Assembly (NCBI GenBank): GCA_039962225.1
Contig: JAMPKV010000024.1
Coordinates: 1-64,000, forward strand
DNA from: Microcoleus sp. AS-A8
Lineage (GTDB): Bacteria > Cyanobacteriota > Cyanobacteriia > Cyanobacteriales > Coleofasciculaceae
DNA length: 64,000 nucleotides
Direction: 5' to 3'
The translations under genes were made by a program, and so were the position numbers. Position 1 is the stretch's first letter. Each line of letters begins with the position of its first letter. Positions 28,272-43,475 of this stretch are shown in pieces. The notes below the pieces were generated by a model. It was not told the origin of the DNA and did not search any database. It was given only the letters and a program-made list of their open reading frames with translations.

Positions 28272-29237
28272 GTGAGTGCAATACGTTTTGAGGACGTGTT
28301 CCTAAAATTTCCAGGTGCATCCCACCCAGCGGTAAATGGCTGCACTTGTGAAATTGAAACAGGTCAATTGGTCGTGATTTTAGGGCCATCCGGTTGTGGG
28401 AAAACAACCCTCCTCAAGATGGTCAATCGCTTATATGAGCCAACATCGGGTAGGATTTACCTCGATAGTACGGACATCCGAAAGATACCAGTTACCCAGT
28501 TGCGTCGGCAGATGGGTTACGTGATTCAGCAGTCTGGGTTGTTTCCCCACATGACGGTGGCACAGAATATTGCCGTGGTGCCGAAGCTGTTGGGTTGGGC
28601 GAGGGGGCAGTACCAAGCACGAGTGGATGAGTTGTTGATGCTCGTGGAACTACCACCTCAAGAATACCGCGATCGCTACCCCGCCCAACTCTCTGGAGGA
28701 CAGCAGCAGCGAGTTGGATTGGCGCGTGCCTTGGCGGGTGATCCAAAAGTCATGTTAATGGATGAGCCATTTGGGGCCATTGACGCGATTACTCGCCAGA
28801 CGTTACAGGACGAGATTCTGCGTCTTCAGCGCCAGCTTCAGAAAACGATTTTGTTTGTGTCTCACGATGTTGAGGAAGCACTGCGTCTTGCCGACAAAAT
28901 CATGATTCTGCAAACAGGACAGATTGTGCAGTTTGATACGCCATTAAATATCCTCACACGACCCGCTAATCCTTTTGTCTATGAATTGATGGGTGCGGAT
29001 GATCGGGTGCGTCAGTTGAGTTTGCTGCGAGTGGAGACGGCAATGGTGAGTGTCTCACCAGACTATCAACCTCGAAGTGAACCTGCGATCGCACGACATG
29101 ATAACTTGCGTCAAGCTTTATCCCTATTGTTACGAACGGGTGCACAGCAGTTAACCGTACTCGATGGTGAGGATGTTGTCGGTATCCTTACCCTTGAACA
29201 AATTCGGGATTCGGCACGGATGAAAGTTAATCGTTAA
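28272..29237 (+). CDS. Betaine-type ABC transporter ATP-binding protein
   Basis: A 321-residue OpuCA/OsmV-type ATPase with GTG start at 28272. It has Walker A GPSGCGKTTLL, Q-loop region MGYVIQQSGLF, signature LSGGQQQRVGLARAL, Walker B VMLMDEPFGAID and H-loop FVSHDVEEAL. The C-terminal 70 residues resemble a single CBS-like half (LRQALSLLLRTGAQQLTVLD...VVGILTLEQI), which in OpuCA-like proteins senses ionic strength; usual members have two. It is in an operon with the binding-protein gene, but no membrane subunit follows. Confidence 0.9.
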   Translation: MSAIRFEDVFLKFPGASHPAVNGCTCEIETGQLVVILGPSGCGKTTLLKMVNRLYEPTSGRIYLDSTDIRKIPVTQLRRQMGYVIQQSGLFPHMTVAQNIAVVPKLLGWARGQYQARVDELLMLVELPPQEYRDRYPAQLSGGQQQRVGLARALAGDPKVMLMDEPFGAIDAITRQTLQDEILRLQRQLQKTILFVSHDVEEALRLADKIMILQTGQIVQFDTPLNILTRPANPFVYELMGADDRVRQLSLLRVETAMVSVSPDYQPRSEPAIARHDNLRQALSLLLRTGAQQLTVLDGEDVVGILTLEQIRDSARMKVNR

Positions 29238-32704: not shown

Positions 32705-32877
32705 GGGATGCACCTCAACGTGAGCAGATGACAGACTTCCTAGCGGAAATGTCTTATCCTACCTGCTATATCTCTGAGCGTCGAGAGCTTATGCACTTAA
32801 ATGAGATTTTCCATCCGATTGGGGGATGCGAAGGGGAGGGTCTATAAGTGTATGCAATTTGCTCGCTCTGACCAAGA

Positions 32878-33357
32878 TTACATCTGCAAAAATAGGATGT
32901 TCCCGTTATTTTCAGAGCCATCAGACCGAGTAGGGTTGAAATTGGGGCGATAGTTTAGCTCATCCAAACAGCCTCGGTTTCTTAAGCCTACCCGGACATA
33001 ATGGCGATAGTGTCTTAGGCGTTTTGCCAAATCTTGAAGTCGATTCACAATCTCTTGTGATCGTAAGTTAAAGGGACTTTTGGCATTCACCTGCCGCGCA
33101 ATTTCCTGGAGTTGCTTAGCTGTCGGCGGTAAACAGGGTTTTTTCCGGCTTGATTGACCGGATGTGAACGAGTCTCGACGTTGCATCAGTCGATCGCGCC
33201 GATAAACCGCATGATAGCTTTCCAGCAAAATACAAGCTAGGGTAATTTCCGATTCACTCAGGTGATGAAATTCCCTGAAAATTCGCTCTACCTGCTTAGA
33301 CTTCGTGTCATTTAAGATGGCCCAGTCACTTATTGAATACACACCGCACTCCCACAA
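32878..33357 (-). pseudogene. Truncated sigma-factor-like gene fragment
   Basis: The 159-residue frame matches one internal stretch of the 962-residue protein at 40587: GVYSISDWAILNDTKSKQVERIF corresponds to its residues near 650, and LESYHAVYRRDRL and the LRHYRHYVRVG end also align. Similarity continues upstream of the ATG (ELNLFLWEC) to a TAG near 33386, and the final HTH-like region of the paralogue is absent. It is therefore a fragment cut at both ends. A short functional protein made from ATG 33357 cannot be excluded. Confidence 0.6.
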
Positions 33358-33483: not shown

Positions 33484-36012
33484 ATGGGCATACCAACTTT
33501 AAAGGCTTCTGAGCAGGGACGAGCCAAAATCAAGCAAGCTAGAGAAAAGAGGGGATGGACAGTCACGGAAGAGGAAAATACACCTCTAAAAGAAGCGAGT
33601 CAATTCCTGCTCAGGCAACATGCGGCAGCTAATGACTGGGAAGCGAATGACTCACGATGGTTGAGGGATTTTCAGCGGCTGTTCCGAGTCGAGAGCCATC
33701 AAAATATTGATGCAATCGAGACCCTCATTGCTAGCTCGAACCAAGGTTCCTGGTTAGAGCAAATTGAACAACGAATAGAATCAGGAGAACTCCTAGTTAA
33801 GCATATCTCATACGGCACTTGGAGTCGATTTGCTTCACAGACAACAGTACGCGGGATTAACAAGCGTGCTTTTAAAGCCTATTGCCATATCTTAGGACTC
33901 CAATGGGAAGAGATTGCGGAACACAGAAATCCTCAGGAATTGGAGAGTTTTGAAGCGACGATTGCCGACCCAAACCAAGCGGCGCAAATATCTACCAACG
34001 GCACTTTACGAAGGCGTCCTGCTCACAACCTACCCGTCCGTTACCACACCGCCTTGATTGGTCGTGACACCGAGATGGCTCAACTATTGGAACTGCTCTC
34101 TCCCCATCACCCGACGGCTCACATTAGTGTGGAAGGAATGGGCGGTGCTGGGAAAACATCCTTGGTTTTGGAAGCCGCTTACCGTTGTTTACAGGCCGAT
34201 TGTGGTGAAGCGACAACGCCACTCGCTCCCAGCTTCGAGGCGATCATCTTTACCTCAGCCAAACAACAACACCTGATTGGGAATCATATCTTGCAACGCC
34301 ACAGGCGAGAGCGTACCCTCAATGATATCTTCCGGGCAATCTTCCGCACCTTAGAGTGTCCAGGCTCACTCCCTGCTGACTTCGAGGAGCAACTGGAGTG
34401 CATCCAAAACCGCTTGCAATCACGGCATATCTTACTGATTGTTGATAATCTGGAAACCCTCGATGATCAAGAGGCTGTCCTCTCCTTTTTATATGAACTG
34501 CCGCCAACGGTAAAAGTGGTGATTACGACCCGCTTTAGAGGCGCTTTTGGCATTCCTATCTATTTAGAGGGTTTGCCACTACCTGAAGCGATGCGTTTGA
34601 TTGAGCATCAAGCTCAAGAGCAACGAGTGCAACTCAAACCCGATCAATTCCAGGCGATTTATCAGAGAACCAGTGGTTTGGCTTTAGGGATTGTTTACGC
34701 GATCGGTCAATTATCAGTCTATGGTGTTTCCACCGATGTCTGGGTGACTCGCTTGACTCAGGCAAACGACTTGGCTCATTATTGCTTTGAAGATTCTGTG
34801 CAACGGCTGAGAGGACAACCCGCCCATCGTCTGCTGATGGCACTGGCGCTATTTGCGAAATCGGCTTCACTAGAGGCAATCGCGCAAATCGCTTTACCCG
34901 AAGCGGATTTAAATGATCAACTCCAGGCAAAATCGATGGACTCGTTACAGGTTTTGGCTCAGTTGCATCGACTGCGATTGGTGATTCAGCGTGAGGAACG
35001 GTATGATATGCATCCCTTAACTCGCGAGTATGCCATCGCTGAACTTAAGGCTCACCCGGAGTTTGAGCGAGAAGTGCGGGAACGTTGGGTGAACTGGTAT
35101 CTCCGCTTTTCTCAAGCCTATGGACAACCGCATTGGAGACAGTGGAAAGAATACCAAGGATTAGACCCAGAGTGGGAAAACCTGCAAGCTGCGATTGACT
35201 GGTGCATTCATCACAACCGATATGAAGAGGCTAGGCAATTTTGGCAACACATTAAGGGATATAGTTATGTGCATGGGTATTGGCACGAGCGTTTGGTTTG
35301 GATCGAATGGTTGCTCCAATCGGCTCAGCAGCGCCAAGACCAATCCGCGATCGCAGAAGCTCTCAGCGATAAGGGATGGACATTAACCTTGATGGTGATG
35401 GGCCAACCAGAGCAACTCGCAGAAGTGGATGATCTGTGTGCACAGGTATCCAATCTACAAGCCAGTGAAGACCTGATATTGCAGTTGGAGTTGACGATTG
35501 AGCGGGCGGTTTGGTCAATTCCCCAGGGAAAATTCGATCGCGCTCACCAACTGTTAAATCGGGCTAAAGAATTACTCCGGCAGGTTCAATTAGAAGAGGC
35601 AAAACGCCTGCGTCAGCAAATTCGCATTGATTACTACGAGGCGGAAGTTTGGTTCAGAACCCAAAATTACCAACGAGCTAAAATCGGCTATCACAAAGCA
35701 CTCGAACAAGCACGAATTGCCCACTGGCAGCAAGTGGAAGTCTATAGCCTGAATTGGCTAGCGGATGTTGCACTCGTGGGAGAGGGCAATCTGGATGAAG
35801 CGGAACGTCTGTTAAAAACGAGTATGCCCATCGCTCTGGCTAGCCAGGATAAGCGATCGATTGCATTCCACAAGCGTTCTTGGGCACATTTGGAGAAACT
35901 CAGGGGGAATCTTGCCCCATTGCAACACTGGGCGATGGAAGCCAAGGAGAGCTTTGAGAGTCTAGGGATGCTGGCGGAAGCTCAAGAAGTGCAATCTTGG
36001 CTGGAGCCTTGA
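33484..36012 (+). CDS. NB-ARC/TPR STAND ATPase
   Basis: An 842-residue protein. The first 140 residues form a helical domain starting GIPTLKASEQGRAKIKQARE and ending KRAFKAYCHILGLQWEEI; this kind of segment often precedes NB-ARC, WD40 or TPR proteins in cyanobacteria and may be an effector- or DNA-associated module. The NB-ARC ATPase follows: Walker A GMGGAGKTSLV (Lys224), Walker B ILLIVDNLETLDD, RNBS-like VVITTRFRG and the GLPL motif EGLPLPEAM. An MHD-like MHPLTREYAIAEL comes near residue 520. The C-terminal 300 residues are helical TPR-like repeats. It should act as an ATP switch that oligomerises on ligand sensing. It is divergent from the sigma-like fragment. Confidence 0.82.
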   Translation: MGIPTLKASEQGRAKIKQAREKRGWTVTEEENTPLKEASQFLLRQHAAANDWEANDSRWLRDFQRLFRVESHQNIDAIETLIASSNQGSWLEQIEQRIESGELLVKHISYGTWSRFASQTTVRGINKRAFKAYCHILGLQWEEIAEHRNPQELESFEATIADPNQAAQISTNGTLRRRPAHNLPVRYHTALIGRDTEMAQLLELLSPHHPTAHISVEGMGGAGKTSLVLEAAYRCLQADCGEATTPLAPSFEAIIFTSAKQQHLIGNHILQRHRRERTLNDIFRAIFRTLECPGSLPADFEEQLECIQNRLQSRHILLIVDNLETLDDQEAVLSFLYELPPTVKVVITTRFRGAFGIPIYLEGLPLPEAMRLIEHQAQEQRVQLKPDQFQAIYQRTSGLALGIVYAIGQLSVYGVSTDVWVTRLTQANDLAHYCFEDSVQRLRGQPAHRLLMALALFAKSASLEAIAQIALPEADLNDQLQAKSMDSLQVLAQLHRLRLVIQREERYDMHPLTREYAIAELKAHPEFEREVRERWVNWYLRFSQAYGQPHWRQWKEYQGLDPEWENLQAAIDWCIHHNRYEEARQFWQHIKGYSYVHGYWHERLVWIEWLLQSAQQRQDQSAIAEALSDKGWTLTLMVMGQPEQLAEVDDLCAQVSNLQASEDLILQLELTIERAVWSIPQGKFDRAHQLLNRAKELLRQVQLEEAKRLRQQIRIDYYEAEVWFRTQNYQRAKIGYHKALEQARIAHWQQVEVYSLNWLADVALVGEGNLDEAERLLKTSMPIALASQDKRSIAFHKRSWAHLEKLRGNLAPLQHWAMEAKESFESLGMLAEAQEVQSWLEP

Positions 36013-38720: not shown

Positions 38721-40565
38721 ATGAATTACGCAGAGTTTACTAAAGCTTTGGCAGGGCTAACCCCTCGACGGGCAGAGGTGTTACTGAAAGTTTTAGCGGG
38801 TAAAAAAGATAAGGAAATTGCCTCAGAGCTAAATATTACAAAAGCTACGGTTAGAAAACATATTGCGGATACCTGCGTGTCCTTTGGCTTAAGCAGTTCC
38901 GAAGAACGAGGCTCATCACACCGTTCCGATTTGTTCTCTTTATTTACTAAATATAGACCCGATTTAATCAATAAAGATGCTGCGGATAGCGCAGATTGCC
39001 CCAAAATTTTAATTAGTTACTATCAGGGTACTGACCCCGACAAAAGCCTTGCCATAGAGTTGGAATCTGCTTTAAAAGCTTCGGGCTACGAAGTCTTTAT
39101 CGTCAATGGAAGTCTGCGAATGGCAACCCACGGACTGCAACAAATCTATGCCGAATTAAATCAATGTGATTACTTGCTGCTGCTGTTGTCCACCCTAGCC
39201 GCTTCCAGTGAAATGGTAACGGAAGAGGTACGATGGGCAAAGGCGTTACAAGACACTCGACCGGATAGCAAGCCAGCGATTTTACCGATTCGGATTAATT
39301 GTCCCAGCCACTTACTCAACCATGACTTGCGCGGTTATCTCCGGGGGATGCCACAGCGCGAATGGCGATCGCCAAATGATACCCCAACCTTGGTAAAAGG
39401 GGTCTTGGAGTTTTTGGCAACCGATGATAATCCAACCGATAAAAGCAGTTCCTTTGCCCCCACCCCAGAACCCGCCGGGGAAAGTTTCCAATTTCCTAAT
39501 CCCTATTCCCTCACCCCCAATCATCCACCTCAGCCTGTCGCAGAGCCAGAATTACCCATGGGACAAGTGGAGTTGGCTTCTGCCTTTTATGTGGAACGCC
39601 CTGGAATTGATCAACGTTGTTACGAAGCGATCGCCAAACCCGGTGCCCTCATCCGCATTAAAGCACCCAGGCAGATGGGCAAAACCTCTTTAATGGCTCG
39701 GATTCTCCAACGCTCTAACACTCTAGGCTATCGTACCGTACCTTTAAGCTTTCAACTGGCAGATAGCAAAGTCTTCACCGACTTAGATCAATTCTTACAG
39801 TGGTTTTGTGCTGTTGTTGCCCTAGAGCTACAGTTACCGGCTCGTTTAGCTGATTATTGGAATGGAATTTTTGGCAGCAAAGTCAGTTGCAAGTCCTATT
39901 TTGAACGCTATTTACTCGCCAACACAACTGAACCTCTGGTTTTAGGTTTGGATGAAGTAGACCGGGTATTACAATACCCCGAACTCACCTCTGATTTCTT
40001 TGGTTTGTTACGAGCATGGCATGAGGAAGCTAAAAATCGGGAGATTTGGAGAAAACTTCGATTAGTGGTGGTTCATTCCACCGAAGTTTATGTTCCGATG
40101 GATATTAATCAGTCACCTTTTAATGTCGGTCTACCGATTGAGTTACCCGAATTTCAGTCCGTACAGGTGCAAGATTTGGCTCTGCGACATGGACTGGCTT
40201 GGGGACTGCCGGAAATCGAGCAACTCATGGTGATGGTGGGGGGTCATCCCTATCTGGTGCGGTTAGCTCTTTATCACATTGCCCGACAGGAAATTACACT
40301 CTCTGAACTGTTAGAAACCGCCCCCACCGATGCCGGACTCTATAGCGACCATTTGCGGCGGCACTTATGGAATTTGTCCCAGCATCCAGAGTTAGCTGCC
40401 GCTTTATACAAAGTCGTGTCTGCGGATAGTCCTGTACAGCTAGAGTCCATCCCCGGATTTAAGTTACAAAGCATGGGACTTGTCCACTTGCGAGGCAATG
40501 AAGTGACACCTCGTTGTAATTTGTATCGCGATTATTTCCGCGTTCGTCTCGCACCGTCACCCTAG
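38721..40565 (+). CDS. HTH-TIR-AAA-like multidomain signalling protein
   Basis: A 614-residue fusion. Residues about 10-60 are a LuxR/GerE-type HTH (LTPRRAEVLLKVLAGKKDKEIASELNI split around the recognition helix ITKATVRKHI). Residues about 93-230 form a TIR-like domain: KILISYYQGTD, ALKASGYEVFI, YLLLLLSTLAASSEM and then a Glu in VTEEVRWA at the place of the TIR catalytic glutamate. A Pro-rich linker leads to an AAA-like ATPase from about residue 280, with FYVERPGID, Walker A APRQMGKTSL (Lys321) and Walker B LVLGLDEVDRV. The gene at 40587 starts 21 bases after its stop, so the two form an operon. Whether the TIR domain hydrolyses NAD+ is unknown. Confidence 0.8.
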   Translation: MNYAEFTKALAGLTPRRAEVLLKVLAGKKDKEIASELNITKATVRKHIADTCVSFGLSSSEERGSSHRSDLFSLFTKYRPDLINKDAADSADCPKILISYYQGTDPDKSLAIELESALKASGYEVFIVNGSLRMATHGLQQIYAELNQCDYLLLLLSTLAASSEMVTEEVRWAKALQDTRPDSKPAILPIRINCPSHLLNHDLRGYLRGMPQREWRSPNDTPTLVKGVLEFLATDDNPTDKSSSFAPTPEPAGESFQFPNPYSLTPNHPPQPVAEPELPMGQVELASAFYVERPGIDQRCYEAIAKPGALIRIKAPRQMGKTSLMARILQRSNTLGYRTVPLSFQLADSKVFTDLDQFLQWFCAVVALELQLPARLADYWNGIFGSKVSCKSYFERYLLANTTEPLVLGLDEVDRVLQYPELTSDFFGLLRAWHEEAKNREIWRKLRLVVVHSTEVYVPMDINQSPFNVGLPIELPEFQSVQVQDLALRHGLAWGLPEIEQLMVMVGGHPYLVRLALYHIARQEITLSELLETAPTDAGLYSDHLRRHLWNLSQHPELAAALYKVVSADSPVQLESIPGFKLQSMGLVHLRGNEVTPRCNLYRDYFRVRLAPSP

Positions 40566-40586
40566 ACTTGCCAACAGGAGTAATGA

Positions 40587-43475
40587 ATGTATACCGAACT
40601 GCGATCGCTTTATGAGTACCAAGTTGGGGGAAGCCTGCCACTAGAAGCCCCTACCTATGTGACGAGGCAGGCTGATGCTGATTTATATCGAGGCGTGAAG
40701 GCAGGGCAGTTTTGTTATGTCCTCAACTCGCGACAGACGGGAAAATCTAGCTTGCGGGTGCGAACAATGCAGCGATTGCAAGCAGAAGGGATGATCTGTG
40801 CGGTTGTTGACTTGACCGCCATTGGTAATCAGAATATTCCTGCTGACCAGTGGTATGCGGGGGTAACTTACACCTTAGCCAGCAGTTTCAATCTGTTAGA
40901 TCAGGTTGATATTGGCACCTGGTGGTGCGATCGCGAATTTCTCCCCCCCGTGCAACGGTTGAGTGAATTTATCCGAGAGGTATTGTTCAAAAAAATTCAT
41001 CGAAATCTAGCTATTTTTGTGGATGAAATTGATAGTGTTTTAGCCCTCGATTTTCCTATTAATGATTTCTTTTCCTTAATTCGCTCATGCTACAACAATC
41101 GTGCTGAACACCCAGAATACAAGCGATTAAATTGGATTTTATTGGGCGTGGCAAACCCCTCGAATTTGATTGATTCTGCACCCAACAGTACACCGTTTAA
41201 TATTGGTTGTGCTATCGAATTAACGGAATTTAAACAACACCAACTCCAACCTCTATCTCAAGGTTTGGTGGACATAACACCCAACCCGGATGCTGCCATC
41301 CAAGAGGTGTTGAATTGGACAGGGGGTCAGCCGTTTTTGACTCAAAAGCTGTGTAAACTCATTCTTCAGGAAGCAGGAGTTAGGAGTCAGGAGTCAGGGG
41401 CATTTTTAAGTGATTCACAATCCCAAATGCCAAATCCAAAATCCCAAATTGCGGAGTGGATTGAAAACTTAGTGCGATCGCATGTGCTGGAAAACTGGGA
41501 AATGACGGATGAGCCAGAGCATCTGAGAACAATACGCAATCGTCTACTTAAAAGTGGATGGCGTATTCTCGGACTCCTGGGACTTTATCAAGAAATTTTG
41601 CAACAAGGGGAAGTACCAGCCAATGATAGTGCAGAGCAAGTTGAGTTGCGCCTGTCAGGGTTAGTTGTGAAACAGGAGGGAAAGTTAAAGGTTTATAACC
41701 GTATATACCAGTCAGTTTTTAATCTTAGTTGGGTTGAGAAAACATTAGCGAATTGGCGACATTATGATTCATCATTGATAGCATGGAAAGCATCAAATCG
41801 AAAAAATGAATCATATTTTTTAAGCGAACCAATATTACAAGATGCTTTAGCCTGGGCAACAGATAAAAGCTTAAGCGATCGCGATGAGCAATTTTTGACA
41901 GCCAGCCAACAAAAGGCGAATCGAATACTCACTCCAGAAGAGGAAAGTTTAAGGGAGAGATTATTTGCCTCACACAGCACTAAGAGTTCTGCATCAAGAT
42001 ACTGGACATTGGTTAGCCTGGATGCGGCAGGGAAACACAGAATCCAAGAAATAGCTTCAGCTAAAGCGTTTTTCCTCGCCTCATTTCCAGAGTTTGCCAC
42101 TCGCCGTGAAGTACCCCATAGCCAGATTCAGTATCAACTCTTGTCCTGGATGAGAGAAACAACGGAAGCAGAAAAAGACCTAATAGGTACACAAACAGCC
42201 AGCCGACGAGACAACAACGAAACCAGTAGGAGTGTTTTAGCACAACGTTGTCTGCAATGCTTTATCTCTAGCCAAATCGAGCGGGTTTGCCTGAAGCTAG
42301 AAGGGCAGTTTGGCACTCAGCACGGCTTTACTTGTAGTGATTTATTATGCTTTGTTTTAGATGAGCAGGACACAAGGCAACCGAGAGGCAAAACAACCGC
42401 TACCTTAAATCTTTACCAATCTCTGTCCCAGGAAATCTTGCAAAAGTTTGACCCACAGCAGAGCAGTTTAGCCACCTGGACAACCCGACTGGTGAAGCAT
42501 CATCGAGAACTGAATCAGTTTTTGCTCGAACATGGAGTTTATCTGATTAGTGATTGGGCAATTCTCAACGATACCACCACTAAACAACTTGAGCGTATTT
42601 TTTCCCAGTTTTACTGCCTAACTTCGCTGGAAATCGAGCAAGCCAAGCTTCTGCTCGAAAGCTACCATGCCGTCTATCGAGTTCAACGCTTAAAGCAACG
42701 TCAATCCGGAATTAAGGGACAGTGTGCGCCACTCACGACAGAACAACTCCAGCAAATTGCTCAACGCTTTTCCTACCAAACCAGTAAGCTACTTCGTCCC
42801 GAAACATTGTTGACAAAACTGCACAATATGGCGTCTCACCTGAGAAATTACCGGATTCACGTTCGAGGGGGTTTTCTACCAACAAAACCTATTGATGTCT
42901 CGATGGCTCCTAATTCCTCTCATGCTACAACTGAGCGCCTTCTCCTACATAGTTTGATAGATGACCGAAATACGATCGATTTGGAAACCGAGTTTTTGGA
43001 TTCCTATCGCCAACAATTTCTTGCTTGTTTAGACCACGCCATTGCAGATATCACTGAACAACGAGTCAGGAAACTACAGCGTAAAGACCCGGAAAAAGCC
43101 CAAAAATTTCTCACCGCCTTAAAGCTATTTCACGGACGGGGTAAGTCAATGGGGGAAATAGCCAAACAAGTGAATCTAAACGCTCAGTTTCATGTCTCCC
43201 GCCTGCTCCAACTCAAATCTTTTCGGGCTGATATCCAACAGCAGTTTTTGATATTATTGCGCGATCGCGTCATTAACACCGCCAAAGTCTATACTGACCC
43301 AGAACGCCTCCAATCTCTTAGTCAACAGATTGAAGAAGCCCTAGAAGAACAAGTTACGAAGGTCATTGAAGACGCCGCAACAGAAGCGAGTATACCAACT
43401 GGTACCAAAAATCAAACCCTATCCACCAGTCTTTTCAGCGAGAGACTTTGCCGCTACCTTGATAGGTTGAAATAA
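40587..43475 (+). CDS. AAA-like ATPase fused to a sigma-factor-like C-terminal region
   Basis: A 962-residue protein. Residues 1-390 are the same AAA_35-type module as at 30239 (YEYQVGGSLPLEAPTYV, Walker A NSRQTGKSSLR with Lys53, Walker [31 protein letters not shown]). The remaining 570 residues include SLATWTTRLVKHHRELNQFL, VYLISDWAILNDT and, from about 800, a helical block with LKLFHGRGKSMGEIAKQVNL resembling the region-4 HTH of sigma-70-like proteins. It may therefore couple ATP-driven sensing to transcription, but DNA or polymerase binding is inference. Residues about 260-290 derive from a low-complexity repeat. It is downstream of, and probably cotranscribed with, the HTH-TIR-AAA gene. 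Confidence 0.75.
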   Translation: MYTELRSLYEYQVGGSLPLEAPTYVTRQADADLYRGVKAGQFCYVLNSRQTGKSSLRVRTMQRLQAEGMICAVVDLTAIGNQNIPADQWYAGVTYTLASSFNLLDQVDIGTWWCDREFLPPVQRLSEFIREVLFKKIHRNLAIFVDEIDSVLALDFPINDFFSLIRSCYNNRAEHPEYKRLNWILLGVANPSNLIDSAPNSTPFNIGCAIELTEFKQHQLQPLSQGLVDITPNPDAAIQEVLNWTGGQPFLTQKLCKLILQEAGVRSQESGAFLSDSQSQMPNPKSQIAEWIENLVRSHVLENWEMTDEPEHLRTIRNRLLKSGWRILGLLGLYQEILQQGEVPANDSAEQVELRLSGLVVKQEGKLKVYNRIYQSVFNLSWVEKTLANWRHYDSSLIAWKASNRKNESYFLSEPILQDALAWATDKSLSDRDEQFLTASQQKANRILTPEEESLRERLFASHSTKSSASRYWTLVSLDAAGKHRIQEIASAKAFFLASFPEFATRREVPHSQIQYQLLSWMRETTEAEKDLIGTQTASRRDNNETSRSVLAQRCLQCFISSQIERVCLKLEGQFGTQHGFTCSDLLCFVLDEQDTRQPRGKTTATLNLYQSLSQEILQKFDPQQSSLATWTTRLVKHHRELNQFLLEHGVYLISDWAILNDTTTKQLERIFSQFYCLTSLEIEQAKLLLESYHAVYRVQRLKQRQSGIKGQCAPLTTEQLQQIAQRFSYQTSKLLRPETLLTKLHNMASHLRNYRIHVRGGFLPTKPIDVSMAPNSSHATTERLLLHSLIDDRNTIDLETEFLDSYRQQFLACLDHAIADITEQRVRKLQRKDPEKAQKFLTALKLFHGRGKSMGEIAKQVNLNAQFHVSRLLQLKSFRADIQQQFLILLRDRVINTAKVYTDPERLQSLSQQIEEALEEQVTKVIEDAATEASIPTGTKNQTLSTSLFSERLCRYLDRLK
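41372..41452 (+). repeat. Low-complexity repeat inside the AAA/sigma-like gene
   Basis: agcaggagttaggagtcagg-type units are followed by ccaaatgccaaatccaaaatcc-type units, both common in cyanobacterial intergenic DNA. They remain in frame and encode RSQESG and SQSQMPNPKSQIAEW. The paralogue at 30239 has a different low-complexity insert at the matching position (about 31840-31925). Confidence 0.7.

Follow-up and report, generated by a model that had tools for sequence, protein, structure and literature searches.

A TIR-ATPase and an AAA_35 partner with a predicted sigma-factor tail in Microcoleus: a candidate gated sigma factor or sigma bait

Two adjacent genes, here called A and B, lie in a stretch of 64,000 nucleotides from the cyanobacterium Microcoleus sp. 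AS-A8 (assembly GCA_039962225.1, 7.7 Mb; contig JAMPKV010000024.1, C24 in our genome set, forward strand, positions 1 to 64,000), which we refer to as the window. Gene A encodes a protein with a helix-turn-helix (HTH), a TIR domain and an AAA_35 ATPase, and gene B encodes a second AAA_35 protein with a C-terminal tail that is predicted to be a sigma factor. We named the stand-alone family to which this tail belongs sigma-X. Our preferred reading, which we hold at a probability of slightly under one half, is that A and B form an ATP-gated switch that would release the tethered sigma-X and thereby couple TIR-linked sensing to the sigma-X regulon.

The first-pass annotation, made from the DNA alone, described a block in B resembling region 4 of sigma-70. 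The likeness to sigma factors stands, but the block is only one part of a longer module. The AlphaFold2 model of the B tail has a mean predicted local distance difference test score (pLDDT) of 87 and aligns to sigma chains across sigma2 to sigma4, so that on this model the tail is a sigma-like module larger than a region-4-like block alone. Comparison of the tail with sigma profiles in hhalign gave weak alignments that are in register (probabilities of 21%, 0.3% and 4.7%; 0.1% for a single-sequence DUF1822 control), and the sigma4-like HTH region has a weak in-register profile match to the extracytoplasmic function (ECF) sigma factors of the same genome. The tail had no credible match in Pfam or in a sequence search of the PDB, and no NCBIfam sigma match. 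Judged by the predicted fold, the tail family is best described as a highly diverged, sigma-like factor.

The B tail is 68% identical to a stand-alone sigma-X of the same genome and aligns along its entire length with the stand-alone copies; our set of full-length sequences (A2) comprised 74 of the 76 full-length stand-alone proteins, two near-duplicates having been excluded, together with the window tail. The HTH region is the best-kept part (82% identity to the stand-alone copy, against 62–70% in the other ordered regions). Because a second genome of the genus, G422, has the same fusion in a conserved gene order (A 91.7% identical, B 81.9%, the tail 84%), an assembly or frame artefact was excluded as the cause of the fusion. 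In a tree of 85 rows, the source genome's sequences cluster with those of Coleofasciculaceae and of other cyanobacteria, and the fused tails of the two genomes are sister to the stand-alone copies of the same two genomes (support 100/98). From this position, we conclude that a duplication and a fusion within this lineage gave rise to the tail.

The fusion has a narrow distribution. Sigma-tailed B genes were found in two of 20 genomes of the family, both of this genus. Sigma-X itself had matches in 123 of 388 genomes. In the best 80 of these 123, scanned as 80 loci with the pattern [ST][DN]WAILND, none of 81 sigma-X ORFs (open reading frames) was fused to AAA_35, in a sample from which records near the source genome may be missing. 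Among the matches listed, frames longer than 600 amino acids occurred only in the source genome and in G273, where sigma-X is in frame with DUF1822. Within the samples examined, we therefore rejected the fusion as a general architecture.

Comparison of this genome with G422 shows that A, B and the tail are under purifying selection, with ratios of nonsynonymous to synonymous substitution rates (dN/dS) of 0.18, 0.25 and 0.22, respectively. The lowest values of the regions measured in A and B were those of the TIR (residues 94-240; 0.105) and the AAA region (0.095) of A. These most constrained regions would suit a scheme in which the TIR is the real output, through depletion of nicotinamide adenine dinucleotide (NAD) or an abortive response, and the sigma tail tethers the complex to the polymerase or is a neutral passenger; it would likewise fit that TIR-type A genes pair with different B tails. 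Purifying selection on the tail makes a passenger unlikely, and we consider this scheme improbable as a whole. About as improbable, in our judgement, is a titrating role, in which the fused sigma-X would bind core polymerase or promoters unproductively and damp the stand-alone regulon. The fused copy does coexist with an intact stand-alone copy, and 5 kb away both genomes of the genus encode a conserved partial sigma-X protein of 159 amino acids that may act likewise (88.7% identical ORF in G422, dN/dS 0.23), with one also in G438. Full-length alignment of the tail with the stand-alone copies and purifying selection on each measured part argue against titration.

The stand-alone genes offer a candidate for what sigma-X might read. 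In 73 of 80 loci, the gene right after stand-alone sigma-X is DUF1822; a CHAT/CHASE2 match is also present in 46 of the 80, many loci being cut by contig ends. Single frames that join sigma-X to DUF1822 (L357:1514-3811 in G273 and L358:3131-4804 in G438) suggest that both work together. The window copy adjoins gene A and a 2256-aa ORF, and no DUF1822 or CHAT Pfam match was found among the nearby window ORFs that were scanned. Upstream of the stand-alone genes (68 usable regions, 59 after dereplication) we found a promoter-like motif, TGCATAAG-N12-AGARNTA. The word TGCATAA occurs in 30 of the 59 regions and the bipartite word GCAT-N14-CAGA in 20, compared with 12 and 8 for the best 7-mer and best bipartite word in eight shuffled sets. 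A matrix of the form TGCATAAG.t........ccAGAa.TA, trained on the same 68 sequences that it scores, gave at least 19.8 in 49 of them, with a shuffled maximum of 18.9.

This motif is enriched where sigma-X is present and lies where promoters are expected. In the source genome, TGCATARS-N12-AGARNTA occurs exactly 14 times and its reversed pattern once (40 and 14 times when one mismatch is allowed). At least two exact sites were found in 29 of the 123 genomes with sigma-X and in two of the 265 without (Fisher 7e-14 over 388 genomes, kinship ignored), and at least one in 48 and 29 genomes, respectively, with site totals of 131 and 32; all these counts include sites at sigma-X itself. Because genomes with sigma-X also contain the reversed pattern more often (15 of them, against 10 without sigma-X; p 0.003), part of the association is due to genome size or composition. 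We located 56 sites in nine genomes, which were picked for having several sites and not drawn at random. Of these sites, 35 are intergenic and at most 150 nucleotides before a start on the same strand (6.0% of random positions), and six are inside ORFs (77% of random positions). One of the nine genomes, G314, has motif sites but no sigma-X match. Taken together, the motif is probably read by sigma-X.

Exact sites in the source genome precede the sigma-X operon, exported-looking TPR proteins, an ABC transporter gene, a DUF6709 gene and, in the window, a second AAA_35 gene, here called AAA_35-Y; the A-B operon has no sigma-X box upstream. TPR proteins with export-like N-termini follow boxes at L288, L289, L294, L296 and L304 (by Pfam; the L304 box has one mismatch) and at L349, L350 and L353 (by eye), which hints at an envelope-directed regulon. 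A broken B-type gene elsewhere in the genome (G000:C7:120169-120714, minus strand) retains an exact box just upstream. The J-Box of SigJ was rejected as the identity of the motif, as it reads GGGaAtacT in the available part of its description (PMC6495340). Among the open-licence PubMed Central (PMC) papers listed, none appeared from its title to concern TGCATAAG in cyanobacteria, or from its title and the opening of its abstract to concern TGCATAA as such a promoter, and the papers searched gave no published sigma-X regulon.

Genes A and B were confirmed as ORFs separated by the 21 nucleotides first noted, the A stop ending at 40565 and the B ATG starting at 40587, with a Shine-Dalgarno-like CAGGAG before the B start. 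Sigma70-consensus promoters around the operon were as frequent as expected (9 found, 9.5 expected). The AAA_35 modules in both proteins and the HTH and TIR-like domain of A, all proposed in the first-pass annotation, were recovered with Pfam (Table 1). The glutamate noted in the TIR, Glu169, is at a position that we take to be the catalytic one; among 42 distinct TIR rows, left after removal of duplicates and contained sequences, the residue is E in 39, Q in two and I in one. With a TIR domain and this conserved glutamate, A is a candidate TIR NAD hydrolase. A TIR structure modelled from the single sequence reached a pLDDT of 56, and the Foldseek list for this low-scoring model was a mixture of flavodoxin-like folds with SPARTA at ranks 9 and 40 and TIR-STING at rank 47. 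In a PDB sequence search, the sole match of the A TIR was Cat1, at an E-value of 0.3.

The GxP motif marks STAND nucleoside triphosphatases (NTPases). The AAA_35 of A has a Walker A motif at residue 315, Walker B at 408 and GxP at 507, all conserved across the 30 A loci sampled. Among 30 B proteins, the P-loop and Walker B columns are invariant and GxP is also conserved. Alignments of related B proteins to B extend to about residue 445. On sequence grounds, both proteins thus classify as AAA_35/STAND-like NTPases. Neither A nor the sigma-X tail had relatives in viral contigs. The N-terminal HTH of A-type proteins is also attached to TPR, WD40 and NB-ARC/AAA proteins (L243, L248, L255). HTH proteins of about 350 amino acids were considered as HTH-Cas6 fusions, a reading that found no support, as they gave no match to the single Cas6 query used; Pfam scans of two of them showed TPR repeats in one and nothing beyond the HTH in the other.

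The first-pass annotation asked whether the pair recurs in other genomes. It does as a pair, but in the genomes sampled the sigma tail was found in this genus only. A was found upstream of B in 18 of the 30 best B loci (none within 1.5 kb in 11, one cut short), and B downstream of A in 18 of 30 sampled A loci (again 11 and one), the source window being included in both counts. TIR loci had a partner in 16 cases, none in 13, and one was cut short. Two AAA_35 queries, which cross-match weakly, each match 54 of 60 genomes of the order, and among the seven A-type genes of the source genome, four have a B-type gene immediately after them. In the source genome, G339, G378, G406, G421 and G422, the gene after HTH-TIR-AAA_35 is in every case a B gene. 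Counting against strict pairing, the stretch of contig seen in G438 shows no B following an A-type relative that has no TIR.

The modules around the two ATPases are exchangeable. Heads seen on A are HTH-TIR, TIR, CHAT, cyclase-TIR, trypsin-TIR and HTH alone; after AAA_35, A may carry a cyclase, and B may carry WD40, GAF, HisKA-HATPase or CHASE2. For the 30 B tails, the best match was a WD40 reference in nine and other B tails, in part WD-repeat-like, in 13 (some at 17-46 bits), followed by GAF in three, CHASE2 in two and sigma-X in one (the source window), with two tails short and unmatched. Tails differ even at orthologous loci: there is none in G339, a Y-like tail in G378 and G406/G421 (by eye), and a sigma tail only in G422. 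Beside the tail-less B of G339, a Cas6 gene (L222:8448-9344) starts 20 nucleotides after the B stop; a search of 9 kb showed no CRISPR array. Genes for Trypco1, trypsin-TIR-AAA_35 and AAA_35-WD40-amidase follow one another on a plasmid of Nostoc sp. ATCC 53789, and A-type matches (E ≤ 1e-60) were found in 36 of 72,556 plasmid records. Sequence comparison thus presents A-B tandem pairs with exchangeable modules as a general combinatorial kind in cyanobacteria. Module content of this sort, as on the Nostoc plasmid, is what supports a role in conflict.

We propose that A and B work together as a switch pair of the STAND/AAA_35 type that depends on ATP. In this genus, B would have as its exchangeable C-terminal module a whole sigma-X, derived by duplication from the stand-alone gene in the DUF1822/CHAT operon. 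The operon structure suggests that the two proteins interact. At rest, the ATPase part would hold sigma-X in an inactive state. On sensing a trigger, the pair would change in nucleotide state and assembly, and the TIR of A would act by cleaving NAD or making a signal. The tethered sigma-X, if it still reads the motif of its stand-alone relatives, could then bind RNA polymerase and drive TGCATAAG-N12-AGARNTA promoters. Its targets would be the operon of stand-alone sigma-X, genes for exported TPR proteins and, at a distance of 6 kb in the window, AAA_35-Y. We favour this gated sigma factor because kinase and amidase outputs occur among B tails and because the sigma tail is complete, under constraint and best preserved in its HTH region.

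Weighing against it, many B tails are sensor-like (WD40, GAF, CHASE2), which makes a role as bait possible. In some paired plant nucleotide-binding leucine-rich repeat receptors (NLRs), one partner carries a transcription-factor domain. By analogy, the duplicated sigma-X in B could be an integrated decoy for a factor, from phage or elsewhere, whose target is sigma or RNA polymerase, and binding of this factor would trip A as the executor. It would suit a decoy that the tail derives from a duplicated and fused resident protein, that the operon also encodes a TIR-ATPase and that no sigma-X box precedes this operon. A bait need not keep best the very HTH that would read DNA, and the output modules on other B tails also point away from it; we consider the decoy unlikely, though less so than titration or a TIR output. 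More broadly, and with considerable doubt, sigma-X may be a sigma-70-type lineage invisible to Pfam and NCBIfam, with the promoter code TGCATAAG-N12-AGARNTA, that serves as the transcriptional arm of cyanobacterial CHAT/AAA_35 conflict-type systems and in one genus was joined to the AAA_35 protein that partners a TIR-ATPase. The outcome would be a bacterial paired receptor of immune type with a sigma output or bait.

Prokaryotic immune-type systems are mostly known to end in killing or depletion. If our proposal is right, the output of an NLR-like ATPase receptor could be a specific programme of transcription. For a sigma family missed by standard libraries, the motif points to candidate target promoters, and either outcome, gated sigma or sigma bait, would inform how modules are recruited into paired ATPase systems.

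Table 1. Positions in the window of genes A and B, their domains and related features.
Feature	Position	Strand	Basis
Gene A, HTH-TIR-AAA_35, 614 aa	38721..40565	+	ORF list; Pfam; orthologues followed by B gene
HTH of A, residues 5-50	38733..38870	+	Pfam GerE 1.7e-8, Sigma70_r4_2 2.1e-7
TIR_2 domain of A, residues 96-197	39006..39311	+	Pfam 1.2e-11
Glu169 codon in TIR of A (MVTEEV)	39225-39227	+	
AAA_35 ATPase of A, residues 279-607	39555..40541	+	Pfam 9.5e-154
Gene B, AAA_35 and sigma-X tail, 962 aa	40587..43475	+	ORF list; same fusion in G422
AAA_35 module of B, Pfam stretch residues 15-261	40629..41369	+	Pfam 2e-29
Sigma-X tail of B, about residues 465-962 (~500 residues)	41979..43472	+	Stand-alone homologue; model; tree
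Sigma2-like domain of tail (predicted), model residues 54-193	42117..42536	+	
Sigma4-like HTH region of tail (predicted), model residues 378-434	43089..43259	+	82% identical to stand-alone copy
Second B-type gene (AAA_35-Y), AAA_35 and tail Y, 824 aa	30239..32713	-	ORF list; Pfam
Exact sigma-X box, TGCATAAG-N12-AGAGATA	32769..32795	-	55 nt before called AAA_35-Y start; same site in G422
159-aa protein matching only the middle of sigma-X	32878..33357	-	50% identical to tail over 134 residues

Elsewhere in the window, tail Y of the second B-type protein (about residues 395-824) has no credible Pfam match and recurs in B proteins from several genomes. In G438, AAA_35-Y is present as a tandem of two genes, both preceded by a sigma-X box, and the 159-aa protein is found next to AAA_35-Y genes in G422 and G438 as well. 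Divergent from the AAA_35-Y side is a gene for an AAA_16/NB-ARC protein with weak TPR matches (33484-36012, plus strand); G422 has a 90.7% identical gene, and a similar-looking one (by eye) occupies the same place in G438. The proposed co-occurrence with defence genes was not established in the window. A PADLOC scan of 43 window ORFs matched 15 model families at 1e-5, such as mad3 (on ORF 28272-29237), IetA, SduA and LmuB, which we regard as generic. At the level of family models and not systems, A had no PADLOC match at 1e-5 and weak TIR and HTH matches at 0.1, and B had none at 0.1.

TIR domains with a conserved glutamate are shared with Thoeris and other TIR anti-phage systems, and A matches the ThcB4 and ThsB models weakly. 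The ThcB4 match, however, scored 21.8 bits against a cut-off of 220, and no ThsA model was among the families matched in the window scan. The closest described counterpart of sigma-X is an ECF sigma factor within EACC2-caspase/DUF1822 neighbourhoods (Kaur et al. 2021, PMC8195603). As far as the available passages of that paper go, stand-alone sigma-X likewise shares a DUF1822 and CHAT/CHASE2 neighbourhood, and from these shared neighbours we infer that the two may be the same. By its 68% identity and sister position in the tree, the B tail is a homologue of the DUF1822-linked gene. The window copy differs in being fused to AAA_35, without a DUF1822 neighbour and beside a TIR-ATPase gene, and those passages contain neither a promoter motif nor an AAA_35 fusion. 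The A-B pairs resemble, in the parts available, the ternary and two-gene conflict systems described for multicellular prokaryotes (Kaur et al. 2020, PMC7159879, and 2021), where constant NTPase cores are combined with interchangeable domains for signalling and effector functions (TIR, trypsin, caspase and others). Here, the core is a pair of AAA_35 proteins, a term absent from the main text of both papers. In the available part of a survey of Pfam-defined cyanobacterial sigma70 proteins (PMC11119718), AAA_35 (2.80%) and CRISPR_Cas6 are among the accessory domains; A-type proteins with a Sigma70_r4_2-scoring HTH would fit this description. Since Pfam sigma models miss sigma-X, the B fusion would escape a survey of this type. 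The open-licence PMC papers searched, most of them as listings, yielded neither the A-B pair as a system, nor the sigma-X/AAA_35 fusion, nor the promoter motif. In the sources as available, the known parts are the TIR, AAA_35, the ECF sigma/DUF1822 neighbourhood and AAA_35 as an accessory domain of sigma70 proteins.
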